Shown here in pieces: positions 6,562 through 42,180 of a stretch of DNA of 48,102 nucleotides. This DNA comes from Anaerolineae bacterium (GTDB taxonomy: Bacteria; Chloroflexota; Anaerolineae; JAADDB01). Numbering within the stretch: position 1 is the stretch's first letter; each line of letters starts with the position of its first letter. Below the pieces are notes generated by a model, which was given only the letters and a program-made list of their open reading frames with translations, was not told where the DNA came from and searched no databases. The translations under genes and the position numbers were made by a program. Location: assembly GCA_015486845.1 (NCBI GenBank), contig WFQU01000077.1:1-48102 (forward strand). The letters run 5' to 3'.

Positions 6562-6804
6562 AATTCCTCCTCTGAAAATAGAACGCAGATTAACGCTGAT
6601 GCACGCTGATCTTAATTTTCATTCGCTGTGGTGTGCCGTAGGCTCATGATAACTCCTCTGAAAATAGAACCTCTCCCTTGGCTTGCCGCCCAAATAGGCG
6701 GCAAGCCTTCCCCTCCCCGACACAGGGAGGGGAAAAAGCTAAGTGCAGCTTAGAGGAGGGAGCACCCCTAAATATAGCTGACACAACACCTTCAAATCAG
6801 GCGC

Positions 6805-6904
6805 GTCATTGCGAGCGAAGCGACAGTGTGACCCTCTTTTTGGTCAAGCAATCTCCAACGCCAGTGAGGGAGATTGCCACGGCCCTGCCGGGCCTCGCAA
6901 TGAC
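6805..6904. repeat. Module D: 100 bp element with 11 bp terminal inverted repeats
   Basis: The element begins GTCATTGCGAG (6805-6815) and ends CTCGCAATGAC (6894-6904), an exact 11 bp inverted repeat. Internal AGCAATCTCC and GGGAGATTGCC extend the symmetry. This resembles REP/BIME or MITE-like elements known in many bacteria. Diverged relatives are visible at about 16568-16643 and from 24602. No target-site duplication is obvious. Confidence 0.75.
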
Positions 6905-6930
6905 AAACTCCGCTGAAAATAAACTTCTCT

Positions 6931-6967
6931 GGAGGGTAGCCGAAGGCAATGCCTTCGGCTACCCTCC
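6931..6967. repeat. Module E: 17 bp perfect stem with 3 nt loop
   Basis: The arm at 6931-6947 (GGAGGGTAGCCGAAGGC) and its exact complement at 6951-6967 flank AAT. A second copy at about 24834-24869 has CCGAGGGC facing GCCCTCGG where this one has CCGAAGGC facing GCCTTCGG, so one base pair changed on both sides. Confidence 0.8.
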
Positions 6968-7113
6968 CCTCCGAAAAATAGAACGCCGATCAATGCTGAT
7001 GTGCGCTGATAAATGCAGGCTGTCCCGCCCTGCGATTAGAAATCGCTGCTACAACTGCGAAACCTGCCTGCGCAAGTTGCATGCTAATCGCCGTAGGGCG
7101 ATTTTCCTATTTT

Positions 7114-7146
7114 AGAAGTCCAACTTCTTGAAGAAGTTGAACTTCT
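7114..7146. repeat. Module H: 33 bp palindrome, copy 1
   Basis: A near-perfect 33 bp palindrome, AGAAGTCCAACTTCTTG followed by its mirror. The upstream arm has one C in place of the T seen in the other copies (AGAAGTTCAAC). Further copies are at 11796-11828, 14216-14248, 28034-28058 (8 bp shorter in the centre) and 30311-30343. Confidence 0.8.
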
Positions 7147-7183
7147 AACCCGTTTACATCCCAAACGCAGGAGAAATGCGGGC

Positions 7184-11329: not shown

Positions 11330-11795
11330 TATGCCTTTTGTTCCTTTCTACTGGACGGCAGCCCCCCCGCCCAAGAGCGCACTACGTGACCCTCCATACC
11401 TGCTCTATACGACACAGATAGTGCCTTCAGGGATACTGTTGCACAGCGTGAAGGTAAAGAACGTTACTCTACCATGTACCCCACATTCACGTCTTTACGA
11501 CACCTATCCTTGTATGGCTTACAAAGAATAAATCACCGGAAAAACAGTACGTTATCTAATAATCCACGAGTATAAGTATATATTTCTGGTTAAATTTTGG
11601 GAAATGACTTAATGATATTGATTCTCCCCTGAAAATAAACTGGGACACAGATTAACGCTGGCTGCGCACGCAGATAGTAAATCAGATCAAAAAACTTGTT
11701 TCGTTACGGCGTCACGACCCCAGTAATCTTTACCGCCTTTCCTGGAAAATAGAACGCTGATCATCGCTGATGCGCGCTGATAAACACTCGGCTTT

Positions 11796-11828
11796 AGAAG
11801 TTCAACTTCTTGAAGAAGTTGAACTTCT
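11796..11828. repeat. Module H palindrome, copy 2
   Basis: 33 bp AGAAGTTCAACTTCTTG with its mirror arm, identical to the copy at 14216-14248. Confidence 0.85.
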
Positions 11829-11934
11829 GTTCGACGGCGTTTTCCGCCAGAGCGCACGGGGGGCAAATCCCCGTGCTACGTCGCTAAAAGCCCCCTGAAA
11901 GGGGGCTGCTGTAGGGCCGAATGAACATTCAGCC
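11796..11934 (+). repeat. Long direct repeat, copy 1 (module H plus hairpin string)
   Basis: 139 bp matched at 14216-14353 in the same orientation with, by eye, five substitutions and one single-base indel. It begins with the module H palindrome (11796-11828). Hairpins follow: GCACGGGG facing CCCCGTGC, AGCCCCC facing GGGGGCT around TGAAA, and GAATG facing CATTC. The two copies bracket fmt and the recombinase-like gene. Confidence 0.85.
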
Positions 11935-12026
11935 TGCGGTGCGCCTGTCTGCGTGCCCGCACAGGCAGGCCGCAAGACCATACCGACACCTCATGAACGT
12001 TGAGGGTTGCTGTAGGGCTGGTCTTT

Positions 12027-12055
12027 TTGGTTCTGACTAAAGGTTGCGCTATGAT
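12027..12055 (+). promoter_or_regulatory. Possible promoter for fmt
   Basis: TTGGTT (12027-12032), a 17 bp spacer, and TATGAT (12050-12055) about 33 bp before the fmt start. The -10 is good but the -35 matches only three of six consensus bases, so this is tentative. Confidence 0.4.
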
Positions 12056-12088
12056 AGACAAAAGAAATGGTGGAGGGGAGGTAAAATA

Positions 12089-13180: not shown

Positions 13181-14140
13181 ATGGACGAACAAAGGAAACT
13201 TTTTACAGAACCAACCGAAGATAGGCAGACGCGTAAAACAGCAGCGGCGGTGTTCCCTTCTCTGCAAAAACAGGAAAATCCAACGTTGAATAGTGCTGTG
13301 GCTGCTTTTCAGACTTACATGTTGGATCAACGCTTTTCGGCCAATACAGTAAAAGCCTTTTCCGGCGATTTGCGTTTGTTCGTGCAGTACATCGGCGGGG
13401 AGCGTCACGTTCGTGCCTTGACAACAGAAGATTTAGACCGTTTTTTGCACTATATTTTACACGAACGGGATGTACCGTGCAGTTCGAAAAGTTATGACCG
13501 GCGGGTGACAACCTTGAAGGTATTTTTCGGCTTCTTGAGCCAAGAGAATGTCATCATCGACGACCCGGCAGGACCTGTTTTGCACTTGAAAGCTAAATCG
13601 CCATTGCAGCGCATTTTACATAAGGACGAAATCGACCGCTTACTCTCTGTGACCAGAGACCGCTTGTGGGGACGCTCGCCTGATAGCCGGCCATATCTTT
13701 TAGTTAGCCTTTTTTTGCAAACTGGGATCAAGAAAAGCGAGGGAATGGCCATCAAGCTGGTGCACATGGATCGCAGTAACCCAACGGCGCCAATTTTAGA
13801 GATCCGTTATCAAGATGCTCGCTACGCGGCAAAGAACCGTAATTTGAGTTTCAGTCCCAGCTTGCTGCCGGTAATCGATCAATATGTCCGGCAATACCAC
13901 CCACAAACGTATCTTTTCGAATGCACAGCGCGTAATCTGGAATACGTGTTGAGCGATGCCGCCAAAGAAGCGGAAATCAAAGATCGGGTTTCTTTTGAAA
14001 TGTTACGTTGGACTTGTGCCGTGCGCGATTACCGCTATGGCATGGACGCCGAAATGTTGCGCAAGAAGCTAGGCCTTTCACCGATCTCTTGGCGGGAAAC
14101 ATTCGATAAAATACGACAATTGGCCAACCCTGGCTTGTAG
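13181..14140 (+). CDS. Tyrosine-recombinase-like protein with degenerate active site
   Basis: A 319-residue protein with the XerC/D two-domain plan. The SAM-like core-binding domain spans about 35-135 (AAFQTYMLDQRFSANTVKAF) and the catalytic-domain fold about 145-315. Aligned by eye to XerD, the first Arg motif TGLRxSE reads TGIKKSE (K184), H-x-x-R reads EMLR (E273, R276 kept), GHS reads GLS (L299), and the nucleophilic Tyr is F308 in RETFDKI. Four of six catalytic residues are therefore changed, and strand cleavage is not expected. The frame is full length with no stops, has GAGGG 6 nt before the ATG and a consensus promoter, so it looks like a functional gene with another role, perhaps DNA binding. 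I see no attachment sites. Confidence 0.85.
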   Translation: MDEQRKLFTEPTEDRQTRKTAAAVFPSLQKQENPTLNSAVAAFQTYMLDQRFSANTVKAFSGDLRLFVQYIGGERHVRALTTEDLDRFLHYILHERDVPCSSKSYDRRVTTLKVFFGFLSQENVIIDDPAGPVLHLKAKSPLQRILHKDEIDRLLSVTRDRLWGRSPDSRPYLLVSLFLQTGIKKSEGMAIKLVHMDRSNPTAPILEIRYQDARYAAKNRNLSFSPSLLPVIDQYVRQYHPQTYLFECTARNLEYVLSDAAKEAEIKDRVSFEMLRWTCAVRDYRYGMDAEMLRKKLGLSPISWRETFDKIRQLANPGL

Positions 14141-14585
14141 ATTTTCATCCCCACCGAAAACAGTTGACACAGAGACGCCAAGACGCAGAGCGTCTAAAAA
14201 ATCAGATCTCCTTTAAGAAGTTCAACTTCTTGAAGAAGTTGAACTTCTGATCGACGGCGTTTTCCGCCCGAGCGCACGGGGGGCAAATCCCCGTGCTACG
14301 TCGCCAAAAGCCCCCTGAAAGGGGCTACTGTAGGGCCGAATGAACATTCGGCCAGCGGTGCGAAGCGCCGGGCAATGATGGCATTTAGGCGACTAATAAT
14401 CACGACGTGCGGGGCCTTCGGGCTTTAGAAGTTCATGGCGGCGTTTTCAGCCGCTGCGGCGCGCCACAGGCTCATGACGACTACCACGAAACCCATTCAA
14501 TGCTATAGGCTGGCATCTGTCAATAACTTTGGCTTCCGGCCGCCAACGGACAACACAGAAAACTTTTTGTTCTACCTCAGTGCGA
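14141..14585. repeat. Intergenic gap filled by repeat modules
   Basis: 445 bp between converging genes with no credible coding sequence. A leader block (GACGCAGAGCGTCTAAAAAATCAG region, 14160-14210) is shared with 30245-30305. The long direct repeat copy 2 follows, then a half copy of module H near 14425, and module B at 14454-14469 in the inverted orientation. Confidence 0.8.
14216..14353 (+). repeat. Long direct repeat, copy 2
   Basis: 138 bp, about 96 percent identical by eye to 11796-11934 and in the same orientation. It contains module H (14216-14248) and the same three following hairpins. A third, partial and diverged relative is at 30311-30395. Confidence 0.85.
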
Positions 14586-16404: not shown

Positions 16405-16951
16405 AATTGACCTTTCTGGAACCAAGCTCTGTTCGTCTTTGACGCATTATCATTATTGCCGCTAATACTACGTTGGCCGGCACATTGTTTGTCTTTATTA
16501 TACGCAGTGGTAGTAGCTGGGCAATATCATTGGACATTCACAAGAGCATCACAGAATTGGCCGTATCATTGCAAGGAGCATTAGCGACGAAGCGATCTTC
16601 CTCATCGGCATCAAGAATTGCTTTACCTCGCGCACAATGACAAAACACGCTTCTCACTAAAAAATAGAACACTGATTAACGTTGATATGCGCTGATCTCA
16701 AATATATTACGCCACCAATATGAAAATCCCTGTTATCAGACCCAGTTCATATCTGCTATCATCAATCAGCTTCATGCCTATCAGGGTTGCATGACCTCTC
16801 AAGCCCGCGATCCCCAATCTTGTTAAGGGATTTTTATCCGCCGTAGTCCGTTTGTCTGCGCGCCTGCGTGTGCAGTACACGCAGACAAACCATTGTGGTG
16901 CTGTGCTAAGTTTCTTCTCGCTCAACACATTACGAAGACAGATGGCACCAA
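16405..16951. repeat. Intergenic gap with diverged modules D, A and I
   Basis: 547 bp without a credible gene. A diverged module D lies at about 16568-16643, module A at 16657-16697, and module I at about 16789-16848, inverted relative to the copy at 24905-24970. An open frame of about 90 codons across 16707-16976 is built largely from modules A and I, overlaps serA, and is not a credible gene. Confidence 0.7.
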
Positions 16952-24585: not shown

Positions 24586-25231
24586 AGGGTATCTATGACA
24601 ATCATTGCGAGCGCAGTGAGCTATCCCCAACATTGGGGGGAGCAGCACACCTCCAGAATTAGGGGCCGGGGGTAACGACTCGGCCCGGCGACTAAAAGTC
24701 ACGGCAACGTCTGCAAAATCGCCCTACAGCGATTCGCATGCAACCTGCGCAGGCAGGTTTCGCAGTGGTGGCAACGATTTCTAATCGCCGGGCGAGACAG
24801 ACTGCGTTGTTCTGCGTTCTATTTTTCAGAGAAGAGGGTAGCCGAGGGCAATGCCCTCGGCCACCTTCCAGAGAAGTTTATTTTCAGGAGAGTCAGCATG
24901 GGACTGCGGCGCACCACAGCGAATGAAAATCCCTTGACAAGATTGGGGATCGCAGGCTTGAGAAGTCATGCTACGGGGAGACCTCTCCCCCAAGCTGCGC
25001 TGCGCTTAGCTTTTTCCCCTCCCCAATACAGGGAGGGGAAGGCTTGCTGCCCCTTTGGGCGGTAAGCCAGGGGAAAGGTCTTATTTTCAGAGTTGTCATG
25101 GGCCTGTGGCACACCACAGCGAATGAAAATTGCCGACTGGCGTCGAGCCTTTAGGCAGCTCGGCAGCGTCAACACCGGCTAAAGCCTCCACTCCGGTACG
25201 GTGGCGTTCTATTTTCAAAGAGGAGAAAACG
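24586..25231. repeat. Intergenic mosaic of modules D, K, G, A, E, I, B, C and J
   Basis: 646 bp without a credible gene, composed of modules seen elsewhere: a partial D from 24602; K at about 24689-24702; G at 24716-24806 (inverted relative to 7019-7108); partial A near 24808-24830; E at 24834-24869; B at 24904-24919 with I to 24970; C at 24981-25077; B again at 25104-25119 with J at about 25137-25190; and partial A at 25204-25230, which ends in the Shine-Dalgarno of the next gene. Most modules are inverted relative to 6562-7183. Confidence 0.85.
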
Positions 25232-26815
25232 ATGGCAATACATGATCATGTGAACAGCAGTCCATCCAGCGCACGGGCTAACGGACCCGCACGTAGCCAA
25301 AACATCCTTTACCTTGCTTTTTACGTAGAATCGGTTCTCGTTGTCGTATTTCTACTAATGGATATCCTGCTATTGGTAACCATCAACAATGTTGCCCACT
25401 CTATACACACGACCTATAATGGAATCAGCCAGTCTAACGAGATCAACAACATGCTACGCACTGCAGAACGCATGAATGAAGCAGGCCTAACAAATATTGC
25501 AACGCCCAATTCACACTTTACAGAAACAATCGAGCAAGAAAAGTCCAACTTCAACCTCGACCTGCAAAAATACCAGACTAAAAGTGACCAGACACAAGAA
25601 GCACAGATCAATCGACCGTTTCAGAAGTTCTACAAAGCATTATTAACTACAGGAAAAAATACAAACGGCCAACCACAACCGGGAGCTATCGCCCAATACC
25701 AAAGCCAAGTAATCCCTCAATACCACAAGCTCATTAGCGCACTAAACCAACAAACATCTTTGATCACAGAAAAAGAAGGCAATGCTCTTATCAATAATGC
25801 CATCACCCCGATAAAGCATGCACGCACACTTCTTTGGCTGCGTGTCGTCATCATTCCACTTATAGCTATCGCTTTTATTCTATATTTCGGACATTTTCTC
25901 AAAAAACGACTACGTATTCCCATTATGACCTTAGGGGAAACCAGCCAGCAGCTCACAATGCTATCCAATAGCTTATACAAGTCCATGAACGAAAGTTCCA
26001 GGTCGTTGGCTGAAATCACGGCCAGCAGTGAGGAATATAGGGCCATGGCGACCTCAATAGCGCAATCCACATTGCGTATCAAGGAGCATGCGGAACAAAC
26101 AGTCACTGAGGCAGAAAAAGCCACACGCATTAGTAAAGAAAGCGAACAACAAGCCACTGAGTTAGCACAACTCATCATTTACTTCAACAAACTTATCAAG
26201 CAAGAGCAACTTGCCGACCAAAAAATCAAGGAACTGAGCAAAAAGCTATCCGATATCGCCGATGAAACACATGTTCTGGCTATCAATGCCAGTATCGAGG
26301 CTGCGGCAGCTGGGGTTCAGGGTGAACGTTTCCAGGTTATTGCCAACGAAGTGCGTTATTTAGCTAAGCAAGAAACAACCACCAGCAAAGAGGTACAGAA
26401 ACTTGCCCAGCAGATAGCTAACAACATCGATAACTTACAACAGATTCACGACGCTGCTAAACCGGCCACAGAGCGTAATCTCCAGCAAGCCGGCGAAACA
26501 AAAGAGATCAACATCAGTACACTAAAACAAATGGCAGAAATACAAAAGCGGTTAGAGGAAATAGCCTTGAATAGTGAGCAACAAGAGATAGCCATCTCTA
26601 ATTTTGTCGAAAGCTTACAGGCATTACAGAAGATATTGAACGGTCAGACATCACAACGGGCCAAGACACTGGAAAACATCACGGCGATTAATCGTACCAT
26701 AGAACAACTAAACTGCGTGGTCAGCGTACAATCGATGGAAGCAGCCACCCCAGCGCCAATTTCTGGATCAACAAACGAGCCAAACCACAACCAAACCAGA
26801 AACGACCCGTCATAA
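25232..26815 (+). CDS. Methyl-accepting-chemotaxis-like membrane protein
   Basis: A 527-residue receptor-like protein. A transmembrane helix at about 23-51 and a second at about 199-220 flank an external sensor region of about 150 residues, predicted helical. The cytoplasmic part is a long coiled coil whose hairpin tip LAINASIEAAAAGVQGERF (about 349-367) and ANEVRYLA correspond to the MCP signalling tip, with deviations (canonical AARAGEQGRGF). No clear HAMP domain is seen. The ATG at 25232 has AGAGGAG 7 nt upstream, contributed by module A. The gene is richer in A than its neighbours. No cheA, cheW or methylation genes occur in the window, so its signalling partner is unknown. Confidence 0.85.
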   Translation: MAIHDHVNSSPSSARANGPARSQNILYLAFYVESVLVVVFLLMDILLLVTINNVAHSIHTTYNGISQSNEINNMLRTAERMNEAGLTNIATPNSHFTETIEQEKSNFNLDLQKYQTKSDQTQEAQINRPFQKFYKALLTTGKNTNGQPQPGAIAQYQSQVIPQYHKLISALNQQTSLITEKEGNALINNAITPIKHARTLLWLRVVIIPLIAIAFILYFGHFLKKRLRIPIMTLGETSQQLTMLSNSLYKSMNESSRSLAEITASSEEYRAMATSIAQSTLRIKEHAEQTVTEAEKATRISKESEQQATELAQLIIYFNKLIKQEQLADQKIKELSKKLSDIADETHVLAINASIEAAAAGVQGERFQVIANEVRYLAKQETTTSKEVQKLAQQIANNIDNLQQIHDAAKPATERNLQQAGETKEINISTLKQMAEIQKRLEEIALNSEQQEIAISNFVESLQALQKILNGQTSQRAKTLENITAINRTIEQLNCVVSVQSMEAATPAPISGSTNEPNHNQTRNDPS

Positions 26816-27977: not shown

Positions 27978-28033
27978 GCGAGCAACCTCGCGTCTGCTTT
28001 GAAAATCACTTCCCGGTTTTAGAAGCCTATTTC

Positions 28034-28058
28034 AGAAGTTCAACTTCTTTGAACTTCT
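28034..28058. repeat. Module H palindrome, shortened copy
   Basis: 25 bp version lacking 8 central bases of the palindrome while both outer arms are kept (AGAAGTTCAA facing TTGAACTTCT). Confidence 0.8.
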
Positions 28059-28230
28059 ATCCATGCTGCGTTGCTCTTGGGCGGCACGTCGGGCGATTGT
28101 GGGTTGTGGCGACTGAAAGTCACGCCGCACAGTACCTGCGGCCGAATGCCGGCCGGCGTGTCACGTTGTTTCACGTCCAATTGTTGGGAAAGCTGAGCAG
28201 TTACCCTCGTTCAATCCCAAGCGCGTTCAT

Positions 28231-28259
28231 TTAACAACTGATTTTCCTTGTGTTATACT
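28231..28259 (+). promoter_or_regulatory. Promoter for glpX
   Basis: TTAACA (28231-28236), a 17 bp spacer, and TATACT (28254-28259); each hexamer matches five of six consensus bases. The predicted start is about 28266, giving a leader of about 75 nt. A second TATATT at 28275-28280 lacks a good -35. Confidence 0.75.
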
Positions 28260-28339
28260 TTTGTTCAGGCGTGTTATATTTGTTCAACACATAGTAAACA
28301 AAGAAGCATCTCATTGCATTTTGCCAAAGGAGAAAGAAA

Positions 28340-29952: not shown

Positions 29953-30310
29953 CGCCCCCCTCCTCTAAAAATAGAACGTAGATTAACGCTGGCTGCGCAC
30001 GCAGATAAAAAATAATGGCGAAAAAATAAGCCTGATGACATCATTATTAGCGAAGCACTGCACTTTCCACAACACCGGCGTCGAGACTTTAGCCGGTAAT
30101 TGCGCTGCCAAGCCACCTAAAGGCTCGACGCCAGTCGTAAATTTTCATCCGCTGTGGTGCGCCGCAGGCCCATGCCGACTACCGAGAAACACACCTGTTT
30201 CTTCCTAAACGAATAATTTTGTATTCGAAAATTACGGAATAGCTCCTCTCATAATCAGTTGACGCAGCGGCGCAAAGGCGCAGAGCGTCTAAAAAATCAG
30301 GGCCTCTTTA

Positions 30311-30343
30311 AGAAGTTCAACTTCTGCGAGAAGTTGAACTTCT
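30311..30343. repeat. Module H palindrome, copy 5
   Basis: 33 bp palindrome with a changed centre (TGCGA instead of TTGAA) but unchanged arms AGAAGTTCAACTTCT and AGAAGTTGAACTTCT. Confidence 0.85.
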
Positions 30344-30433
30344 ATTCGCCGGCGTTCTCCGCCCGAGCGCACGGAGATTTGACCCCCGTGCGCCCCCCGG
30401 CCCCCAATATAGACGACAGTCCACGCAGGCCAA

Positions 30434-30475
30434 GAAAAAAGCAGCGGAAAGAAAATACATCATCCCCCCGCTGCT
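30434..30475 (-). terminator. Terminator of the ribosomal protein cluster
   Basis: On the minus strand AGCAGCGG (30475-30468) pairs with CCGCTGCT (30447-30440), and a run of T follows to about 30435. It lies about 45 bp past the rpsI stop and should end the long S10-to-S9 transcript. Confidence 0.85.
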
Positions 30476-30518
30476 AACTTAGTAAACTATTAAAAGCTCA
30501 CCACAGAAAAATTCGCTT

Positions 30519-30914
30519 TTAACGCTTGGTGTACTGCGGTGCCTTGCGAGCTCGCTTGAGGCCATATTTCTTGCGCTCTTTGATGCGAGCATCCCGCGTC
30601 AACAAGCCATAACGGCGCATCAGCGGACGTAAATTCTCGTCTAATTTCACCAACACTCGGGCGATGCCCAAACGCACAGCGCCGGCCTGGCCAGCAATGC
30701 CACCACCTTTGACCAGAACCGTAATGTTGAATTTATCTAAACTCTCGCTGACTGCCAGCGGTTCTAATAAATGCTGACGGTCCATTTCACGAGGAAAATA
30801 ATCTGCCAAAGGCTTATTGTTGATAATTACCGTTCCCGTCCCAGGATAAAGACGCACCCGAGCAGAAGCTTCTTTACGTCGGCCAATCGCCTCTGTATAT
30901 CTCACCTCATCCAT
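30519..30914 (-). CDS. rpsI: 30S ribosomal protein S9
   Basis: 131 residues. S9 sits in the 30S head; its C-terminal tail reaches the P-site tRNA and here ends in the expected basic KYGLKRARKAPQYTKR. The N-terminal YTEAIGRRKEASARV and the central VKGGGIAGQAGAVRLGIARV are family signatures. ATG start, 16 bp after rplM; the L13-S9 pair is conserved in most bacteria. It is the last gene before the terminator. Confidence 0.97.
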   Translation of the reverse strand: MDEVRYTEAIGRRKEASARVRLYPGTGTVIINNKPLADYFPREMDRQHLLEPLAVSESLDKFNITVLVKGGGIAGQAGAVRLGIARVLVKLDENLRPLMRRYGLLTRDARIKERKKYGLKRARKAPQYTKR

Positions 30915-30930
30915 CTATGCCTCCTAACAT

Positions 30931-31359
30931 CTACAGGTCCAACACTTTGGGCTGCTGCGCCTGATGTGGATGCGTATCCGACGCGTACACCTTCAACTTC
31001 TTGAACATCTTGCGTCCTAACGAATTATGGGGCAACATGCCGCGCACCGCTAATTCGATCGCACGCTCCGGGTGCTTTGCCATCATCTCCTGCCAGGGAA
31101 TCTCACGTAGCCCCCCGGGATAGCCGGAATGTCGATAATACATTTTCTGCTCTGCTTTCCGACCCGTCAAACGCACCTTACCGGCATTCACCACCACTAC
31201 AAAATCCCCACAATCCACATGGGGCGTAAAAATAGGCTTGTGTTTGCCTCGTAGGATTTTGGCAATCTCGCTGGCTAACCGCCCCAAAGTCTTACCCTGA
31301 GCGTCAACCAGGTACCACTCCCTTTTAATTTCACCTTGCTTAGGACTGTACGTTCGCAC
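30931..31359 (-). CDS. rplM: 50S ribosomal protein L13
   Basis: 142 residues, an early-assembly 50S protein. Seen: [20 protein letters not shown] near the N-terminus, [14 protein letters not shown], and [19 protein letters not shown] near residue 107. The start is GTG at 31357-31359 with AAGGAG upstream. It forms the usual pair with rpsI and follows truA by 17 bp. Confidence 0.97.
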
Positions 31360-31376
31360 CGTACTCTACTCCTTAC

Positions 31377-32132
31377 TCAATAATTCACTTGCCACAGAAA
31401 GAGGCCTTTAGCCGGGGCCGGCGGTGGTGCCATGGCCAAATCCTTAGCTGCCAAAACAGCCGCCAATTGTTCCACCGTCCAACGTTTTTGCCCGACCCAA
31501 ACCAACGCCATCACCAAACGGCGGACCATACGCCACAAAAACGCGTTAGCCTCCACGCGGTAAAGCCACATACGGCCATCCTGCCACCAATCCGATTGCA
31601 GTACTTCGCGCACCGGATTATTGCCGGCCGGCGGCTTGCCGAACGAAGAAAAATCATACCGACCCACCAAAATCCTCGCCGCCCGCTGCATCAGAGCAAA
31701 ATCCAAAGCGCCCGACACATGATAGCTAAACCGTTCGTGCAACGGCGAACGCACCTCACCCCGCCACAAAAAATAGCGGTATTCGCGACTGTGCGCACTA
31801 AAGCGAGGATGAAACCTCCCCTCGGCCAGTTCTAACTGCAAAACGGCCAGGTCATCCGGCAAAATAGCATTCAAAGCTCGCCGCAACGTCGCCAAATCGT
31901 GGCGCCACGGAAGAGAGAAAGCAACCACCTGCCCATTAGCATGCACCCCGCTGTCCGTGCGACCGGCACCCACGATTCGCACCGGCACCCCGCTCAACCG
32001 AGCCAAAGCCTGCTCCAAAACCCCTTGCACCGTTCGTCCCCGGGCCTGAATTTGAAAGCCCCGGAAATCGGTACCATCGTAGGCAATATTCGCCCGCAGG
32101 TAGACCGCTTCCACCTCCTTTACGACAGGCAA
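31377..32132 (-). CDS. truA: tRNA pseudouridine synthase A
   Basis: A 251-residue enzyme that makes pseudouridine at positions 38-40 of the tRNA anticodon arm. The catalytic Asp is D60 in GAGRTDSGVHANGQV; IAYDGTDFRGFQ near residue 16 and FLWRMVRRLVMALVWVG near 205 are conserved segments. The start is uncertain: TTG at 32130-32132, 2 bp after the rplQ stop and 7 nt after a GAGG. The AAAGGAGG a few codons inside the frame has no well-placed start. Its position between rplQ and rplM is common in several phyla and couples tRNA modification to ribosome synthesis. Confidence 0.93.
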   Translation of the reverse strand: MPVVKEVEAVYLRANIAYDGTDFRGFQIQARGRTVQGVLEQALARLSGVPVRIVGAGRTDSGVHANGQVVAFSLPWRHDLATLRRALNAILPDDLAVLQLELAEGRFHPRFSAHSREYRYFLWRGEVRSPLHERFSYHVSGALDFALMQRAARILVGRYDFSSFGKPPAGNNPVREVLQSDWWQDGRMWLYRVEANAFLWRMVRRLVMALVWVGQKRWTVEQLAAVLAAKDLAMAPPPAPAKGLFLWQVNY

Positions 32133-32134
32133 AC

Positions 32135-32518
32135 CTAATCCTCGGGCCCCTCAACCAATTCCAACAAAACCATCTGCGCACCATCTCCAGGACGAGGCCC
32201 CAACTTCAAAATACGGGTATAACCACCTTTCCTGGATTGGTAACGCGGCGCAATATCCGTGAACAATTTCCGTGCCATCTCGTTGTCGTTCAAATGGGCA
32301 GCTGCTCTGCGTCGTGCAGCTACCACAGCGCGCTGCCCTTCTAAAGCACGTTTCGCCGTTGTAATGAGCCGCTCGGCATCGGAACGCGCAGCTTTCGCTT
32401 TCGCCTCTGTGGTGCGAATACGCTCATGACGAAATAATTCCGTTACCAGGTTCCTAAATAGTGCCTTGCGGTGCCCCGAAGAACGACCGAGATGTCGTCC
32501 AGCTACTCGATGTCGCAT
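32135..32518 (-). CDS. rplQ: 50S ribosomal protein L17
   Basis: 127 residues. The N-terminal [20 protein letters not shown] and [19 protein letters not shown] are typical of bacterial L17, near the exit tunnel. ATG start. It follows rpoA by 43 bp, as in most alpha operons. Confidence 0.97.
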
Positions 32519-32561
32519 TGATTTTCACTCCAACTTTCTATGACTGGCTCGATCCAATCCA

Positions 32562-33509
32562 TTACTCGATATATTGATCGTAGCCTTTTTCGTGCATTTT
32601 CGCCTTCAACTCATCCAAAGACTTGCGCCCAAAGTTGCGGATAGAGAGCATCTCGCCGTCACCCAAGCGCATCTTCTCAATAATCTGACCAACTTGCAAA
32701 AGCCCGGCCCGCTTCAAACAATTGTCCGCCCGAGAAGAAAGCACCAAGCTTTCCATCGGCACGGAATACACTTCCAGCGGGATATTCTCCACATCAGTCA
32801 CAGGTTCTACAACCGGCGGGACATCGCTAACACCGGCCACCAAAGCAAAATGGCGCAACAAGATGGAAGCACTTTGTCGCAGTGCGTCCTCCGGTGCAAT
32901 AGTGCCATCCGTCCAAATTTCTAACAGTAAGCGATCATAGTCCGTTTTCTGGCCAATGCGTTCACTATCCACGGAAAAATTCACTTTGCGCACTGGACTA
33001 AAAATCGCGTCCACAGGAATATTACCCAGTGGTAACTCACGGCGACTCTCGGCTGGGGAATAGCCTCGTCCCCGCGTGACGGTCAACTCCGCGTCTAATT
33101 CCACATCATTGGAATCAGCAGTGCACAGATAAAGTTCCGGATTCGCTACTTCCAGACCATGCGGGCAGTAGACATCAATGCCCGTCACCGGCCCTTCCGC
33201 ATTCACCTCCAACTTGACCTGGATTGGATCGTCAGACTCGGTCAGCCAACGAAAACGCAACCGCTTCAAATTAAGAATAAACTGAATGGCATCTTCACGC
33301 ACATGAGGAATCGGTGAAAACTCATGCTGAATGCCAAGAATACGTATAGATGTAATAGCCGCCCCGGGCAAAGAAGAAAGCAACACACGGCGTAATCCAT
33401 TGCCTAACGTAATCCCGTATCCTTTCTCCAACGGGCTCACGATAAAACGGCCATATGTCTGCGTTGTTGCCTCTATTTCTACTACATTTGGCAAGACTAA
33501 ATCTAACAA
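32562..33509 (-). CDS. rpoA: RNA polymerase alpha subunit
   Basis: 315 residues. The N-terminal dimerisation domain includes GYGITLGNGLRRVLLSSLPG near residue 30 and FSPIPHVREDAIQFILN. The C-terminal domain, which contacts promoter UP elements and activators, has SSRADNCLKRAGLLQVGQ and IRNFGRKSLDELKAKM. The start is TTG at 33507-33509 with GGAGG 7 nt upstream; the next residues LDLVLPNVVEIE fit the usual N-terminus. It lies between rpsD and rplQ as expected. Confidence 0.97.
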   Translation of the reverse strand: MLDLVLPNVVEIEATTQTYGRFIVSPLEKGYGITLGNGLRRVLLSSLPGAAITSIRILGIQHEFSPIPHVREDAIQFILNLKRLRFRWLTESDDPIQVKLEVNAEGPVTGIDVYCPHGLEVANPELYLCTADSNDVELDAELTVTRGRGYSPAESRRELPLGNIPVDAIFSPVRKVNFSVDSERIGQKTDYDRLLLEIWTDGTIAPEDALRQSASILLRHFALVAGVSDVPPVVEPVTDVENIPLEVYSVPMESLVLSSRADNCLKRAGLLQVGQIIEKMRLGDGEMLSIRNFGRKSLDELKAKMHEKGYDQYIE

Positions 33510-33579
33510 AAGAAACCTCCTTGCTCAGGAAAAACCGACGTCCCATCCCTGTGAAAATAGACGGCACGCTTCTTACCCA

Positions 33580-34215
33580 TTAGCGGCTGTAATATTCGAC
33601 AACCAACTGTTCGTTGATGGGGATGTCGACGTGTTCCCGTTCCGGCAAACGCAAAACGACCCCGCTCAACGATTCAATATTTAGCTGCAACCAATCGGGG
33701 ACTGTTTTATCAGCAGCGATCTCTTCACGCAGCTTGAAAAAGCCATTCTGGCGGTGACCTTCACGCACTAAAATGGTATCCCCGGGAGCCACCAAATAAG
33801 AAGGAATATTTACTTTCCGGCTATTGACAGCGATATGGCCGTGACGGACCAGCTGTCGTGCTTGGGCACGAGAGTCCGCCAGACCAAGCCGGTACACGAC
33901 ATTATCAAGACGACGTTCCAATAACGTCAAGAGAGCCGTGCCGGTCTTACCCTTTTGGCGAGAAGCTTCCGCAAAATAGCGGCGGAACTGCCGTTCCATC
34001 ACGCCATAAATACGGCGCACTTTTTGCTTTTCGCGCAACTGGATAGCAAAGTCCGATGCCTTGCCACGACGCCGGCGATTATTACCTTGATCGCCGGGCG
34101 GGTAGGGGTGACGCTCGAACGGACATTTCGACGAAAGGCAACGATCACCTTTCAAAAAGAGTTTTTGATTTTCTCGCCTGCATAACTTACAAACAGGACC
34201 TGTATAACGAGCCAA
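33580..34215 (-). CDS. rpsD: 30S ribosomal protein S4 (zinc-binding form)
   Basis: 211 residues. S4 nucleates assembly of the 30S body and in many bacteria represses its own operon. [12 protein letters not shown] and [10 protein letters not shown] near the N-terminus supply four Cys for a zinc site (C+ form). The S4 RNA-binding domain lies at about 100-165 ([22 protein letters not shown]). I set the start at TTG 34213-34215, giving the family-typical [12 protein letters not shown] with GGAGG 5 nt upstream. A GTG four codons earlier overlaps that Shine-Dalgarno. Confidence 0.96.
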
Positions 34216-34350
34216 ATTAACCTCCACTTCTCGAATTTCTTGGGGTTTACAGCTTGGCTAAACTTTCATCCCCCGATAAATCGCACAAACTCAGCAAGCT
34301 ACAACATAGGCGCTCAGAACGGCCTCTACTCGCGCGACCGAGCCACTACT

Positions 34351-34755
34351 TTAGACACGTCGCTTTTTGGGCGGGCGGCAACCATTGTGTGGCACCGGCG
34401 TAACATCGACAATGGCATGAACCACAATACCACTGCCTTGCAACGAGCGCAAAGCAGTTTCCCGCCCCGGCCCCGGCCCTTTCACTCGCACTTCCGCCTC
34501 ACGCATGCCAACATCAAGGGCCATTTTTGCCACCTGTTGGGCAGCTAACTGAGCAGCATAAGGCGTGCTCTTACGCGATCCCTTGAACCCGGCCGTTCCG
34601 CCACTCGCCCATCCGATGACATTCCCCTGTTGGTCTGTTACCGTGATGATGGTATTGTTAAAAGTAGACTGAATGTAAAAGCGGCCTCTCGGCACCAATT
34701 TCTTTTCTCGTCGAGCGCCAGAACGGCGACCTCGACGACGTGTTGGTTGAGCCAT
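34351..34755 (-). CDS. rpsK: 30S ribosomal protein S11
   Basis: 134 residues. A 30S platform protein near the mRNA exit. [37 protein letters not shown] and [18 protein letters not shown] are family signatures. ATG start. It lies between rpsM and rpsD in the alpha operon; 135 bp without a gene separate it from rpsD. Confidence 0.97.
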
Positions 34756-34834
34756 ATAACTCCCTCTGCAAGATAAACCCTAAAACAGGCACAACAGACC
34801 GACCACCGGTCTCCTGCCTGACCAACTAAGCCAT

Positions 34835-35212
34835 TTACTTCCGCGCTCGCTTGCGGCCTGGCACAGTTTTACGTGTCCCACGCCTCGTGCGAGCGTTCGT
34901 GCGAGTGCGCTGGCCATGCGCCGGCAAATTCCGGCGATGCCGCAAACCGCGATAAGCACCAATTTCCGTCAAACGCTTGATATTCATCGCCACATCCCGG
35001 CGCAAATCACCTTCCACACGATAATTGCGATCGATGATCTCACGCAAACGAATGACCTCAGACTCAGTTAAATCATTCGAGCGCGTATCAGGATCCACGT
35101 TAGCCACCCGGAGAATCTCCCGGCTGGTGGAAAGCCCAATGCCGTAAATGTATGTCAACGCCACTTCAATGCGTTTGTTGCGGGGTAAATCAACCCCTGC
35201 GATACGAGCCAT
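34835..35212 (-). CDS. rpsM: 30S ribosomal protein S13
   Basis: 125 residues. A 30S head protein at the subunit interface and P-site. [26 protein letters not shown] and the basic [18 protein letters not shown] tail are typical. ATG start with AAGGAG upstream. It follows rpmJ by 18 bp. Confidence 0.97.
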
Positions 35213-35230
35213 TCGCCAACTCCTTTTTCA

Positions 35231-35344
35231 CTAACCTTGGCGCTGCTTGTGTTTCGGATTAGAACAAATTACCCGAACCACTCCTTTGCGCTTCACAATT
35301 TTGCACTTCTCACACCGCTTCTTCACAGACGATCGTACTTTCAT
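35231..35344 (-). CDS. rpmJ: 50S ribosomal protein L36 (zinc-binding form)
   Basis: 37 residues. It reads [20 protein letters not shown], then [18 protein letters not shown]11, C14, C27 and H32 form the C-x2-C-x12-C-x4-H zinc knuckle of the C+ form. Two ATGs lie in tandem; the second (35342-35344) is 6 nt after GGGGAG and gives the standard N-terminus. It sits between map and rpsM, where infA would often precede it. Confidence 0.95.
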
Positions 35345-35368
35345 CATTTTCTCCCCAGCGCCCGAAAA

Positions 35369-36154
35369 TTACAAGCGTGTTAAAATATCAGCCCCGTTTT
35401 CGGTGACTAACAATGTATGTTCAAAATGGGCCGACAACGCGCCATCAGCTGTGACCACCGTCCAGCCATCAGCCAACACCCGCGTGCGCCAAGTGCCCAT
35501 ATTTACCATGGGCTCAATGGCAAATGTCATGCCCGGTTGCAAAACCAAATAGCTATCGGCATGCGCCATATTGACGTAATGCAGAATCTCCGGCGGCTCA
35601 TGCATCTCCCGGCCAATACCGTGTCCGGTATATTCCCGCACCACCGCCAAACCGTGGTTTTCCACATATTGCTGAATAGCGGCCGAAACCTGCATCATAG
35701 GCTTGTTCGCTTCCACTGCGGCAATGCCTTTATAAAGGGCATCTTTCGTCACATCCAGCAACCGTTGCGCGGCGTCGCTGATCTGCCCCACAGGGTAGCT
35801 CCAGGCACCATCTCCCTGCCAGCCTTTGTAAATCGTGCCGGTATCGATACTGACGATATCGCCTTCCTGCAACACCCGGTCCGGGCGGGGAATGCCGTGC
35901 ACCAATTCATCATTAATGGACGCACAAATAGAAGCCGGAAAACCATAATACCCCTTGAAAGAAGGAATAGCCCCATTCTTCCGAATCACGCTCTCAGCCA
36001 AAGTATCCAACTCGGCAGTCGTAACGCCGGGTTTAATAGCCTCCCGCATGTGCGCATGTACTAAAGCGACCAAACGCCCTGCTTCCCGCATCAGCTTAAT
36101 TTGTTCTGCCGTCCGGCATTTCACCTGCGCCGGACGCCGCTTCATCTGTTTCAC
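35369..36154 (-). CDS. map: Methionine aminopeptidase, type I
   Basis: A 261-residue metalloprotease that removes the N-terminal Met of nascent proteins. The pita-bread metal ligands are visible: two Asp in IDTGTIYKGWQGDGAW, His in GHGIGREMHEPP, Glu in MTFAIEPM and Glu in HFEHTLLVTENG. The GTG start at 36152-36154 shares one base with the adk stop (TAGTG), indicating coupled translation. Its place after secY-adk is the classic spc-alpha arrangement. Confidence 0.95.
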   Translation of the reverse strand: MKQMKRRPAQVKCRTAEQIKLMREAGRLVALVHAHMREAIKPGVTTAELDTLAESVIRKNGAIPSFKGYYGFPASICASINDELVHGIPRPDRVLQEGDIVSIDTGTIYKGWQGDGAWSYPVGQISDAAQRLLDVTKDALYKGIAAVEANKPMMQVSAAIQQYVENHGLAVVREYTGHGIGREMHEPPEILHYVNMAHADSYLVLQPGMTFAIEPMVNMGTWRTRVLADGWTVVTADGALSAHFEHTLLVTENGADILTRL

Positions 36155-36822
36155 TACGCTCTGACACTCTCTACAACCGCTATCAACGCGGCTTGCACAT
36201 CATCAACCTTACAATTACCGTTAATCTCTCGCAAAAGCGCTTGCTGACGATAAAACGCAATCACCGGCAACGTTTCTCGAAAGTAAACTTGCAGCCGGTT
36301 ACGAGCTGTTTCTGCGCTGTCATCCGAACGTTGGTAAAGTTCACCACCGCACAAATCACAAACCCCATCCACCTTGGGCGGGTTGAATAATACATGATAA
36401 ACAGCTCCGCAATTTCGGCAAATCCGACGTCCCGAGAGTCGTTGGATTAAGACTTCATCCGGCACTTTAAGATACACAGCGACATCAACCTGGCCGCCAA
36501 GAGAAGCCACCACCTCGTTCAAGGCCTCCGCCTGCCGCACAGTTCGGGGAAAGCCATCCAACAAGGCGCCGCGAGCACAATCTGGCCGCGAGAGCCGCCC
36601 TCTGACCATAGCAACCGTCACTTCATCCGGAACCAGCTCGCCTTTGTTCATGTAGGACTTGGCCAAAAGCCCTAGCTCTGTTTCCTTTTTTAAGTTCTCC
36701 CGAAAAATATCACCTGTCGATACCTGGGGTAAGCCGGTCGCTTTTTCTAACAACTTAGCCTGCGTACCTTTTCCGGCCCCTGGTGCCCCTAAAAAGACGA
36801 CGAAAAACGGTCCTTGCGGCAT
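36154..36822 (-). CDS. adk: Adenylate kinase (zinc-lid form)
   Basis: A 222-residue enzyme interconverting ATP plus AMP with two ADP. The P-loop is GAPGAGKGT at 12-20; FPRTVRQAEAL near 91 is the AMP-binding signature. The long lid carries C135-x2-C138 and C155-x2-C158, the zinc-binding type. ATG start. It overlaps map by one base and lies 61 bp after secY. Confidence 0.96.
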   Translation of the reverse strand: MPQGPFFVVFLGAPGAGKGTQAKLLEKATGLPQVSTGDIFRENLKKETELGLLAKSYMNKGELVPDEVTVAMVRGRLSRPDCARGALLDGFPRTVRQAEALNEVVASLGGQVDVAVYLKVPDEVLIQRLSGRRICRNCGAVYHVLFNPPKVDGVCDLCGGELYQRSDDSAETARNRLQVYFRETLPVIAFYRQQALLREINGNCKVDDVQAALIAVVESVRA

Positions 36823-36883
36823 TTCTTATGCCTCCAAAACCCATCGATTTAAAAGAACGCCTCCCCACCTCCACTTACTTAGC

Positions 36884-38167
36884 TTAACGAATAAAACCTT
36901 CGTAATGACGCATGAGCAACTGTGCTTCCATCTGTTTCATCGTGTCCAATACCACACCGACAACGATCAGCAAACCGGCGCTGCTGATGAGCATGACGGA
37001 CGTGGACGTAAACCCGCGCACGAAGAAAGGTATGACCGCCACGGCGGCTAAAAACAACGCTCCCACCAGGGTAATACGGGACATCACTTTGTTCAGGTAC
37101 GTCTCGGTAATCTTACCAGCCCGGATACCGGGGATGAACCCTCCCTGTCGCTGCAATGTTTCCGGCAAGTTTTGTTGTCGAAACACCACATCGGTGTAGA
37201 AATAGGTGAACCCGACAACCATCCAGAAATAAGCAAACCAGTAAAACCAACCTTGGATATTAAAGACAGAAGTCGTCGCGCTGGCCACGGAAGCAATCCA
37301 AGGCGTGCTGGAACCCACGAAATAGCTGGCCAGGGTGGCCGGCAAAATCATCAAACTCTGGGCGAAGATAATCGGGATCATGCCGGCGGCGTTAACGCGC
37401 AACGGCACATAGGTGCTCTGGCCGCCGTAAACTTTGCGCCCGCGCACCCGCTTGGCGTATTGTACTGGAATACGGCGCTCGCCTTCCTGTACAAACACGA
37501 TCACAGCAACAGTAATAATCATCACCAAGATCAAAACAGTAAAGCCGACATAATTGCCGGCGGCTAACATCTGGCCCATGCGCCGGGGCATAGCCGCCAC
37601 AATACCACCAAAGATGATGATCGATATGCCGTTACCAATGCCATCCGACGTAATCAGTTCACCTAACCACATGGCAAAAGCGGTGCCGGCCGTCAAGGAG
37701 ATCAACGTCGTCACGGTGGGCAACAAGTTAGCGCCGGTGAAACCGAAATGCGGCAAAACGCCCGCTCGCGCTAACAAAACCGACTGTCCCCAACCTTGCA
37801 ACAGCGCCAAAGGAATGGTCAGCCAGTTGGTGTATTGGTTGATCTTCTGGACACCCTGCTCGCCCTCTTTGGACAGCTCTTCCAATTGCGGAATAATAGG
37901 CACCAACAACTGCAAGATAATGGAAGACGTGATGTACGGGTAAACGCCCATGGACATAACCGAAAACCGGGACAAAGCCCCGCCGGAAAACATATCCAAT
38001 AAACCCACTAACGGATTACTGGCAAATACTTGCTTCAAAACATTTTGATCCACGCCGGGAGCAGGAATATGCGCCGCCAGCCGGTAAATGACCAGAAGCC
38101 CCAGCGTCACCAGCAGCTTATTACGCAGATCCGGCAGGCGGAAGGAATTACGTACAGCATCAATCAT
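36884..38167 (-). CDS. secY: Preprotein translocase subunit SecY
   Basis: 427 residues, the channel subunit of the SecYEG translocon in the cytoplasmic membrane. Ten hydrophobic segments can be recognised, starting with LLVTLGLLVIYRLAAHIPAPG. GGALSRFSVMSMGVYPYITSSI near residue 61 is the family signature, and the cytoplasmic loop VQEGERRIPVQYAKRVRGR lies near 225. ATG start. It lies between rplO and adk, as is standard. Confidence 0.97.
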   Translation of the reverse strand: MIDAVRNSFRLPDLRNKLLVTLGLLVIYRLAAHIPAPGVDQNVLKQVFASNPLVGLLDMFSGGALSRFSVMSMGVYPYITSSIILQLLVPIIPQLEELSKEGEQGVQKINQYTNWLTIPLALLQGWGQSVLLARAGVLPHFGFTGANLLPTVTTLISLTAGTAFAMWLGELITSDGIGNGISIIIFGGIVAAMPRRMGQMLAAGNYVGFTVLILVMIITVAVIVFVQEGERRIPVQYAKRVRGRKVYGGQSTYVPLRVNAAGMIPIIFAQSLMILPATLASYFVGSSTPWIASVASATTSVFNIQGWFYWFAYFWMVVGFTYFYTDVVFRQQNLPETLQRQGGFIPGIRAGKITETYLNKVMSRITLVGALFLAAVAVIPFFVRGFTSTSVMLISSAGLLIVVGVVLDTMKQMEAQLLMRHYEGFIR

Positions 38168-38261
38168 TGCGTTGTTCTCTCCTCAAAAGCAGGATACCCT
38201 GTCACAAATCTCCCCCACCCGGGCTGGTCGCGTTTTACTGGCCAACTCAGCAGGATCGACA

Positions 38262-38717
38262 TCAACGCGACAGCAATTCAACGGTACCGCCGACAGCTTC
38301 TACCTTCTGCCGGGCACCTCTGGTGATCCGATGTACTTTCACCGTCAAAGCACGATCCAAGTCACCATCACCTAACAAAACCACGGGCAGCGCTGTAGAA
38401 CGAATGAAGCCTGCGCCAGCCAATTGCTCCGGCGTCACCTCGCTACCGGCAGGAAACCGCTCTGCGTCCAGGTCGCCGACATTCACCTCTGCATATTCCA
38501 CCCGCCAGCGATTCTTGAAACCTCGCTTGAAAGGCAATCGCCGCACGAAAGGCAACTGACCGCCCTCAAAATAAGGGCGCACACCGCCGCCGGAGCGGGA
38601 ATTCTGGCCTTTGGTACCCCGGCCAGCCGTTTTACCTTGCCCTGCAGCAATGCCTCGGCCAACCCGTTTCCGGGGGCGACGACTGCCGGGAGCAGGTCGC
38701 AAATCATGCAAATTCAT
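38262..38717 (-). CDS. rplO: 50S ribosomal protein L15
   Basis: 151 residues. MNLHDLRPAPGSRRPRKRVG and the glycine-rich GKTAGRGTKGQNSRSGGGVR are typical of L15, a late 50S assembly protein. I choose the ATG at 38715-38717 with GGAGGAG 5 nt upstream; a GTG two codons earlier overlaps the rpmD stop. 94 bp without a gene separate it from secY. Confidence 0.96.
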   Translation of the reverse strand: MNLHDLRPAPGSRRPRKRVGRGIAAGQGKTAGRGTKGQNSRSGGGVRPYFEGGQLPFVRRLPFKRGFKNRWRVEYAEVNVGDLDAERFPAGSEVTPEQLAGAGFIRSTALPVVLLGDGDLDRALTVKVHRITRGARQKVEAVGGTVELLSR

Positions 38718-38719
38718 GG

Positions 38720-38923
38720 TCACTCCTCCACCACTTCCACGCTCACCAAATGGCTCACCTTCGCCACCATGCCGCGCACCGCGGGTTGATCATTGTGTTC
38801 TACCATATCACCTAAATGGCGCAACCCCAAAGCACGCACCGTCGCTTTCTGGCGAGCTGAATAGCCAATGGCGCTTTTCACATAAGTTACGCACAAACGG
38901 CGTGTCGCTTGTTCAGTCACCAC
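38720..38923 (-). CDS. rpmD: 50S ribosomal protein L30
   Basis: 67 residues. [20 protein letters not shown] and the turn [20 protein letters not shown] are the L30 signature. Two GTG codons in tandem (38923 and 38920) can start it; both lie inside the last codons of rpsE, so the genes overlap by 8-11 bp. AAAGGA lies upstream. Confidence 0.95.
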
Positions 38924-39464
38924 GCTTTTCCTTTCTCAGCCAAAATGGCTGCAACGAGCCTGCGGGTCTATTCCGCAGGGCAGCAACCTCTTCTGGCGAT
39001 TGCAACTGGCGCAACCCTTCCAGCGTAGCTTTGGTCACATTCAAAATATTGGCGCTACCCATGGATTTCGTCAAGACATCCCGAATGCCGGCAGCTTCCA
39101 ACACGGCACGCACGCCGCCACCGGCAATAACGCCGGTACCGGCAGAAGCAGGCCGCAAGAGTACCTTGGCTGCGCTGTAGCGAGCAATGATCTCATGGGG
39201 AATCGTCGTTTCCACCATGGGCACCGTGATCATGTGCTTGCGCGCCCGCTCAGAGCCTTTGCGAATAGCATCAGGCACCGCACCGGCCCGGCCAACGCCC
39301 ACGCCAACTTTCCCTTTTCGATCGCCGACCACCACAACAGCACGAAAACTAAAGCGCCGGCCACCTTTGACGACCTTTGCCGTGCGCGCAATATGAACTA
39401 CACGCTCGTCGAATTCGTCAACTTCTTCGCGCCTACCCCTGGCAACATTTCTTCTCGCTGGCAT
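38913..39464 (-). CDS. rpsE: 30S ribosomal protein S5
   Basis: 183 residues. The N-terminal double-stranded-RNA-binding fold contains [19 protein letters not shown] and [16 protein letters not shown]. The C-terminal part contains [20 protein letters not shown] and [15 protein letters not shown]5 contributes to decoding fidelity. ATG start. It overlaps rpmD. Confidence 0.97.
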
Positions 39465-39490
39465 TTGTCCTCCTCATTCACACCAAACAC

Positions 39491-39856
39491 TTAAAATTGC
39501 AAGCCAGCTTCGCGCGATGCTTCCGCCAGCGCTTTCACTCGCCCAAAATAAGGGTAGCCGCCACGATCAAAAACCACCGTCGTGATACCTTGCGCCAATG
39601 CCCGCTGGGCAACCAACTGACCAACCAGTTTAGCTTGCTCGATTCTCCCCAAACCCGTCACTTTATCCCGCAGTTCTTTGTCTATGGTAGAAGCTGTCGT
39701 CAGTGTACGGCTGGCCTCATCGTCAATCACTTGTGCATAAATATGATTCAAGCTGCGGAACACGTTCAAGCGCGGACGAGAGCTCGTGCCGGAAATTTGT
39801 TTCCGAACCCGAACATGACGTCGCAACCGTGCCGCAGAACGTTTATCCCTTGCCAT
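39491..39856 (-). CDS. rplR: 50S ribosomal protein L18
   Basis: 121 residues. L18 binds 5S rRNA; its basic N-terminus [20 protein letters not shown], the segment [20 protein letters not shown] and the C-terminal [20 protein letters not shown] are typical. ATG start, 26 bp before rpsE. Confidence 0.97.
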
Positions 39857-39904
39857 GATAACCTTCCCTCTTCATAACATACAGGGCCGCCCGACAATAC
39901 GCCA

Positions 39905-40447: not shown

Positions 40448-40472
40448 TATACTATCCTCCTGTGACCGACGA

Positions 40473-40868
40473 CTACCAGACGTAACAAAGGACCTCGCCG
40501 CCCGTATTGAGCTGACGCGCCTTTTTCCCCGTCATAACCCCGCGTGACGTAGAAAGGATGGCCGTTCCCAGCCCACTACGCACCCGAGGAATGGATTGTC
40601 GTTTCGTGTAAATTCGCCGGCCCGGCTTGCTGATCCGCTTCAAACCCGTAATCACCGGCCGCCGATTCTCATCATACCGTAAAATTATCCGCAACATCGG
40701 CTGTGGTTCCGCCCGGTTCACGTCAAAGTGCTGAATGTACCCTTCTTCTTTCAATATCCGGGCCATAGCGACTTTGGTCTTAGAACTGGGAATCAACACA
40801 GAACGATGGTGAGCCATATTTGCATTGCGTATGCGTGTTAACATATCCGCAATAGGATCCGTCATCAT
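40473..40868 (-). CDS. rpsH: 30S ribosomal protein S8
   Basis: 131 residues. [18 protein letters not shown] at the N-terminus and the C-terminal [20 protein letters not shown] are family signatures. S8 binds helix 21 of 16S rRNA and often regulates the spc operon. Two ATGs lie in tandem; the first is 9 nt after GGAGG. The 143 bp before it, up to rpsN, are AT-rich and hold no gene. Confidence 0.97.
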
Positions 40869-41194: not shown

Positions 41195-41208
41195 AACCCC
41201 TCCTAAAC

Positions 41209-42169: not shown

Positions 42170-42180
42170 CCGACAACCTC

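Follow-up and report, generated by a model that had tools for sequence, protein, structure and literature searches.

Arrays of short cassettes occupy much of the intergenic DNA of the Anaerolineae bacterium studied here. These cassettes are probably non-autonomous mobile elements that are targeted to Shine-Dalgarno (SD) sequences and supply a new SD at their own 3' end. The stretch of DNA analyzed, hereafter the window, is contig C77 (48,102 nucleotides) of a 3.28-Mb draft genome, which consists of 182 contigs and is 97.9% complete with 0.9% contamination.

Repeat blocks are abundant in intergenic DNA

A first-pass annotation of the window had proposed that seven gaps between genes are largely built from common short blocks. 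Self-comparison of the window by BLAST confirmed that such blocks are real and far above chance: positions 6614-7105 matched positions 25131-24715 at E=1e-59, the segments 11793-11943 and 14213-14362 showed 95% identity, and further pairs were found. The genome-wide copy count suggested as a check showed the blocks to be common beyond the window, with 117 matches to gap 6562-7183 in the same genome, several of them long and collinear. Copy numbers in this genome are lower bounds, because many matches sit at contig ends; the arrays appear to break assemblies, and contig ends often fall in them.

A 448-kb sample, made up of 21 stretches picked blind to repeats, was used to compare intergenic and coding DNA: bases recurring at least three times accounted for 25% of the former versus 1% of the latter.

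The seven gaps differ in how far they are covered by repeat blocks: 27978-28339 holds one palindrome fragment alone. Positions 11330-11620, inside gap 11330-12088, are unique sequence, and in gap 16405-16951 at least threefold recurrence is found only at 16668-16765 and 16798-16845. The description of many blocks as hairpins stands with the correction that some blocks are not.

The units end in a Shine-Dalgarno motif

Read toward the gene that they face, the units end in variants of TATTTTCARRGGAG. The unit borders are set by a common 14-nt end, the reverse complement of CTCCTCTGAAAATA, which was absent from the block list of the first-pass annotation. The consensus of the 3' end is (T)ATTTTC-N-RAGGAG; module J ends in TGATTTTCARRGGAG and module G has a shorter purine tract. 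Exact copies of TATTTTCARRGGAG numbered 262 in the genome, versus 0 for the reversed control.

The terminal motif is a Shine-Dalgarno site, typically 4-13 nt from the start codon. In the 448-kb sample, 26 motifs closed an array, and 17 of them stood 2-15 nt before the start of an ORF with 100 or more codons; the proportion for random intergenic positions was 4.5% (p=3e-17). Array ends without a recognised start codon beside them made up about a third. The genes behind the arrays are diverse, with no common theme, and include what we take from their sequences to be PurB, RimM and a cobalamin adenosyltransferase.

Among 42 start-adjacent motifs in the sample, none lacked a module upstream. The motif therefore belongs to the element, and the possibility that native SDs occur by chance near repeats was ruled out. 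Behind the 79-bp U1 body the sequence was AGAGGAG without exception, and behind U2 it was AGGGGAG in nearly all cases, while the 5' flank varied (AGAAG, AGGGAG, GGTAG). Because each unit type has its own 3' SD regardless of what precedes the unit, the SD is carried by the element, which speaks against a target duplication as its source.

Arrays in the window

The array in gap 6562-7183 precedes a minus-strand gene for a ParA-family ATPase (PF13614; 5773-6561), the closest named relative of which comes from an Anaerolineae MAG (77% identity), and would supply its ribosome-binding site. The 3' terminal motif TATTTTCAGAGGAG (6567-6580, minus strand) is the putative SD of this gene, whose GTG start codon at 6561 is that of the ortholog in L093. 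Further upstream, all on the minus strand, the following units were mapped. The 86-bp U1 cassette (B+A; 6567-6652) starts directly after the GGAG of the upstream unit and has exact 86-bp copies. The C cassette (6653-6768) also ends in TATTTTCAGAGGAG (6653-6666). Module D (TTTGTCATTGCGAGG...GCAATGACACG), together with a spacer of about 36 nt (6769-6910), starts after an SD-like GGAG. The E cassette (6911-6967), with the palindrome GAGGGTAGCCGA..., ends in TTTATTTTCAGCGGAG, its 5' end overlapping the preceding motif, and the F+A cassette (6964-7109) ends in TATTTTTCGGAGGGGAG (6964-6980). The REP-like palindrome G (AGAAGTTCAACTTCT...AGAAGTTGAACTTCT; 7110-7148, no strand assigned) was placed by self-BLAST and by the module map.

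Positions 6803-6910 of module D (TCATTGCGAGC...GCAATGAC) form a long imperfect palindrome that is also found outside SD-ended arrays. Module D may belong to a repeat family of its own that the arrays have picked up as cargo.

On the plus strand, array F-E-B-L-C-B-K (24621-25225) is located upstream of a gene for a methyl-accepting chemotaxis protein (25232-26815). It contains an internal terminal motif, TATTTTCAGGAGAG (24879-24892), with a B module directly after it, and closes with a U2-type cassette (B+K; 25093-25225) ending in TATTTTCAAAGAGGAG, 6 nt before the ATG at 25232. The end of array a-K-B-J-G-H (29958-30391, minus strand) is formed by TATTTTTAGAGGAG (29960-29973), which directly precedes a molybdopterin-binding-domain gene with its ATG at 29952; this motif and those of the ParA and chemotaxis genes are the start-adjacent motifs of the window. 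Array a-A-G-H-I (11624-11991, minus strand), ending in TATTTTCAGGGGAG (11624-11637), is not start-adjacent: the gene start, at 11329, is some 290 bp further downstream. Array J-G-H-I-B (14150-14477, minus strand) faces the 3' end (stop codon) of a plus-strand gene and is an exception to the start-codon rule.

The minus-strand region 30519-47900 looks, by ORF sizes and order, like an alpha/spc/S10 ribosomal protein operon. No listed array lies inside this putative operon; the array in 29953-30518 is just past its end.

Modules are co-oriented and form units of fixed length

A map of thirteen modules and a linker was drawn for 101 islands in 563 kb. Among 371 pairs of neighbouring non-palindromic modules, 364 had the same orientation and 7 the opposite one. 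The blocks had been described as shuffled in order and orientation: the 364:7 co-orientation rules out a random shuffle in both orientations, and the order does vary, but the module adjacency matrix revealed a partial grammar. The observation that at least five modules of 6562-7183 recur inverted in 24586-25231 was reproduced, with their order kept. The inversion is only apparent: the two gaps hold arrays of one kind that face genes on opposite strands, and an entire island is turned round when the gene it faces is.

Successive motifs were found at fixed spacings of 86, 130, 86-87 and 115 bp, corresponding to units U1 (modules B+A, 86 bp; 27 copies with a mean pairwise identity of 97%), U2 (B+K, 130 bp), U3 (86-87 bp) and C (115 bp). 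Overall the units measured 67-260 bp and contained no genes. Exact unit borders and zero coding content ruled out pieces of one long insertion sequence. The first-pass annotation was right to see in the blocks a composite repeat system that acts on intergenic DNA and not the remains of one insertion; the system is genome-wide and made of fixed-length recombining units.

The 5' border follows an SD-like sequence

Module B, the common 5' module, starts directly after an SD-like GGAG. For the 5'-most B unit, the preceding native sequence is usually SD-like as well (GGGAGGAG, ATAGGAG, AGGGAG, GGAGGT). Modules C, D, E, F and H-K have no B-type 5' end.

For a hairpin in the 5' module, shuffling each sequence separately yielded a combined p=3e-5, but RNAalifold returned no consensus structure for this module; recognition through such a hairpin is at most a possibility. 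A subterminal TGAAAAT/ATTTTCA pair links the end of B with the 3' motif, and this complementarity could bring both ends together, though the RNAalifold analysis of the 5' module showed no covariation in its favour; no terminal inverted repeat was seen. No Rfam family scored above its gathering score in the window.

Empty and filled sites

Filled and empty orthologous sites were compared between the genome of the window (G000) and a genome of another genus (G003) for nuoI, a mutase-like gene and a response regulator. Upstream from nuoI, the empty site in G000 reads ATCTACAGGAG-AAGTAAATAAAT-ATG; the filled site in G003 reads AAATCAGAGGAG, followed by two units ending in ...ACGAGGAG-AGGGCGAT-ATG. 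For the mutase-like gene, CACGAAGGAG-AAAAAT-ATG in G000 is replaced in G003 by GAATCAAGGAG, a unit and CAGAGGAG-ACCACT-ATG. The junction between a histidine kinase gene and the response regulator gene gave a similar pair, but its 3' side shows no clean motif. Within another genus, G303 has a plain SD-ATG arrangement, GAAAGCGAG-GACTC-ATG, at the position where its sister G277 carries an array of two or more units.

The three pairs between genera show apparent insertion 3' of the native SD, the intergenic DNA of the empty sites being too diverged for independent base-exact junctions; the G277/G303 pair supports this reading. Flanking genes of the two genomes are about 70% identical and the modules 92-98% identical, which indicates that the modules were moved or shared recently. 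Contamination as the origin of the near-identical modules in G003 was ruled out, since the flanking G003 genes are only about 70% identical.

In arrays with at least two B modules (n=11), the gene-proximal B had on average 0.27 mismatches versus 1.14 for the distal B (paired p=0.027). From this small sample of 11 arrays, growth appears to take place at the start codon.

Distribution among other genomes

Across 396 genomes of the class, some families were rich in copies of the motif (123, 70, 50, 36, 32) and most had none; the motif was absent from four of the five other members of the same family. In six genomes of other families, 34 of 44 motif sites were located 4-18 nt before an ORF start. 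Many units in other families start after GGAG with a B-like end, T..TCAYGAGCC..GGCACACCACC..ATGAAAAT, and units there end in ATTTTCGAAGGAG or close variants. A sequence model of the 5' end had matches in 16 of the 18 motif-rich genomes and in one of the 14 that lack the motif (p=5e-6), and in a stricter phylum-wide scan matched one genome of another class. The unit bodies are family-specific and in other families often have a 7-nt period (lag 7, z=14, in the 60 nt before the motif); in the genome of the window the period is 10 nt (lag 10), not 7.

In a genome from which the exact 3' motif is missing (L240; G022:C100), 15 B-type 5' ends were counted. One of these units ends in the variant ATTTTCGGAGCGGAGG, therefore the 3' end varies beyond the search pattern.

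Comparison of U1 with phages and plasmids gave no match; the B core matched one viral contig. In L245 (G330:C190:7439-10482), a B-type end is found directly before an ORF, 468 aa or longer, whose start resembles a helix-turn-helix and which may encode a transposase. This candidate for a gene-bearing cassette had no NCBIfam match and was rejected as probably an unrelated insertion.

At L130:1-240 (G003:C323) and at G000:C46:2895-3025, an a/A module contains a fusion to an apparent group II intron 3' end, with the domain V-like sequence GAGCCGGATGCGGGAAATCCGCATGTCCGGTTC. The junction, CTCTACC/GTTGATCTGCGT, is identical in G003 and G000.

A model for array formation and its alternatives

We propose that the target of a cassette is the SD of a gene. 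Insertion would occur directly 3' of an SD-like RRGGAG, before the start codon, with a constant orientation and no duplication of the target; the GGAG would then be followed at once by the best conserved 5' end of the cassette (B and relatives). The cassette's own 3' SD would then land at working distance, and the gene would still be translated from it in vivo. This new SD would be the next target, later cassettes being inserted serially beside the start codon and older ones pushed upstream; because the new SD is itself a target, co-oriented head-to-tail arrays would be formed. The cassettes would be moved by a putative enzyme. The model takes in the observed borders, polarity, targets, start-codon position, element-borne 3' SD and empty sites, and the patchy spread across genera.

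More tentatively, the cassettes may represent an element class that has the ribosome-binding site as its integration target. Its enzyme would recognise GGAG, the 5' module and the (A)TTTTC..RRGGAG end and would insert directionally, with the SD replaced each time. Arrays would then record the order of insertions at each gene, across many families of one class.

The arrays could instead be translation-control leaders comparable to the start-codon heptamer repeats (MacGregor 2015), that is, regulatory elements of the 5' UTR that are maintained by selection and whose mobility is secondary. The position of the motif beside start codons, the 7-nt periodicity before it in other families and the presence of an ATG five nt after GGAG in 66 of 67 B copies would agree with this explanation, which we nevertheless consider unlikely. 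Near-identical copies across genera and empty orthologous sites show movement, and the downstream genes share no theme. The mini-ORF of module B (MSLRHTTADEN*) was rejected as coding: its ATG is conserved, but the variation is not at third positions.

Spread of REP/BIME-type repeats by a RAYT (TnpA_REP, an IS200/IS605-like HUH transposase), with start-codon placement due to survivor selection only, is decidedly improbable. Directional insertion without duplication, next to and 3' of a short guide motif, is what HUH enzymes carry out, and the polarity without duplication observed here fits single-strand (HUH) or site-specific recombination chemistry in general. RAYT genes are known to be flanked by their own REPs (PMC2817692), and both Y1_Tnp (PF01797) loci of the genome, L071 and L072 (G000:C99 and C73), are flanked by AAGTTCAACTTC palindromes. 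These palindromes correspond to module G, however, and not to B or SD-ended units; the two Y1_Tnp matches are weak and one has an internal stop. L071 and L072 are probably a RAYT in decay whose REP is module G, and Y1_Tnp may explain module G alone.

Across 32 genomes, the raw counts of Y1_Tnp and of the motif showed a weak rank correlation (rho 0.38, p=0.03), but the presence of Y1_Tnp did not track the motif: it was found in 14 of 18 high-motif versus 11 of 14 zero-motif genomes (Fisher p=1), four of the 18 motif-rich genomes had none, and motif-free family members with a strong Y1_Tnp exist. In RAYT-dependent BIMEs the orientation of the REPs alternates (PMC2817692), whereas that of the modules described here does not. 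The TnpA_REP mobiliser suggested in the first-pass annotation is not supported for the system. With Y1_Tnp as the enzyme compared across the 32 genomes, neither a mobiliser nor an autonomous copy was found.

There is even less to recommend an integron-like system, in which a tyrosine recombinase would exchange units at (A)TTTTC..RRGGAG, acting as attC/attI. As in integrons, the arrays are directional and head-to-tail, with variable bodies and one common 3' site, and a gene for a divergent Xer-like tyrosine recombinase (13181-14140, plus strand) is located between two of them. This recombinase, however, scored far below the NCBIfam XerC/XerD cut-offs, and reached 29 bits with the integron-integrase model against a cut-off of 265; Xer proteins are near-universal. 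Unlike integron arrays, the units are gene-free and attC-free, no integron core site was found, and there are hundreds of sites instead of a single platform.

Local duplication and homologous recombination between leaders, acting with no dedicated enzyme, could produce tandem whole-unit repeats such as B-K-a-B-K-a at C49:16308-16827, but can hardly account for exact GGAG borders in unrelated flanks, for the insertion of a single unit at an orthologous gene in another genus or for dispersal over hundreds of unlinked sites.

Relation to known repeats and significance

The SD-targeted cassettes resemble REP/BIME repeats and their RAYT system in being high-copy short palindromic repeats that form composite intergenic mosaics, with a short guide-like motif 5' of the repeat (GGAG here, GTAG/CGTC in REP). 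They differ from them in being directional, SD-ended and placed at start codons. Modularity, with optional internal parts between constant ends, is shared with pneumococcal BOX (boxA-boxB-boxC), RUP and SPRITE. In BOX and RUP, terminal inverted repeats are accompanied by target duplications, and copies are enriched in the gaps between convergent genes (PMC3049150), whereas the cassettes have no target duplication and are located before start codons.

The TAACTGA heptamer repeats of Beggiatoaceae, Cyanobacteria and Bacteroidetes also point toward start codons from a few nt away, precede unrelated genes and are patchily distributed; their 7-nt period recalls that of the cassette bodies in other families. 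SDs are rare among them, in about 10% of repeat-bearing regions (PMC4679880), and no known element ends there, whereas the cassettes are SD-ended and have a defined 5' border. Prokaryotic MITEs, ERIC and Rickettsia palindromic elements are likewise short, non-autonomous, present in hundreds of copies and able to sit in transcribed leaders, but no SD target or SD end is described for them; a 2024 MITE review does not mention Shine-Dalgarno, ribosome binding or start codon (PMC10969869).

The literature that was searched, with subscription journals mostly outside it, described no SD-targeted element. We know of no described element with an SD target or an SD end. The cassettes can be placed among short non-autonomous repeats as a variant; the possibility that they form a separate class is real.

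The patchy distribution implies that the mobiliser should be findable by genome comparison. A gene would be expected to fall silent when DNA is inserted between its ribosome-binding site and start codon, and yet stacks of up to about eight units are carried before diverse genes, some of them essential-looking. If the model is true, elements that aim at an SD and pay one back would reveal a new way for parasitic DNA to avoid doing harm, and would provide a simple route to long structured 5' leaders.
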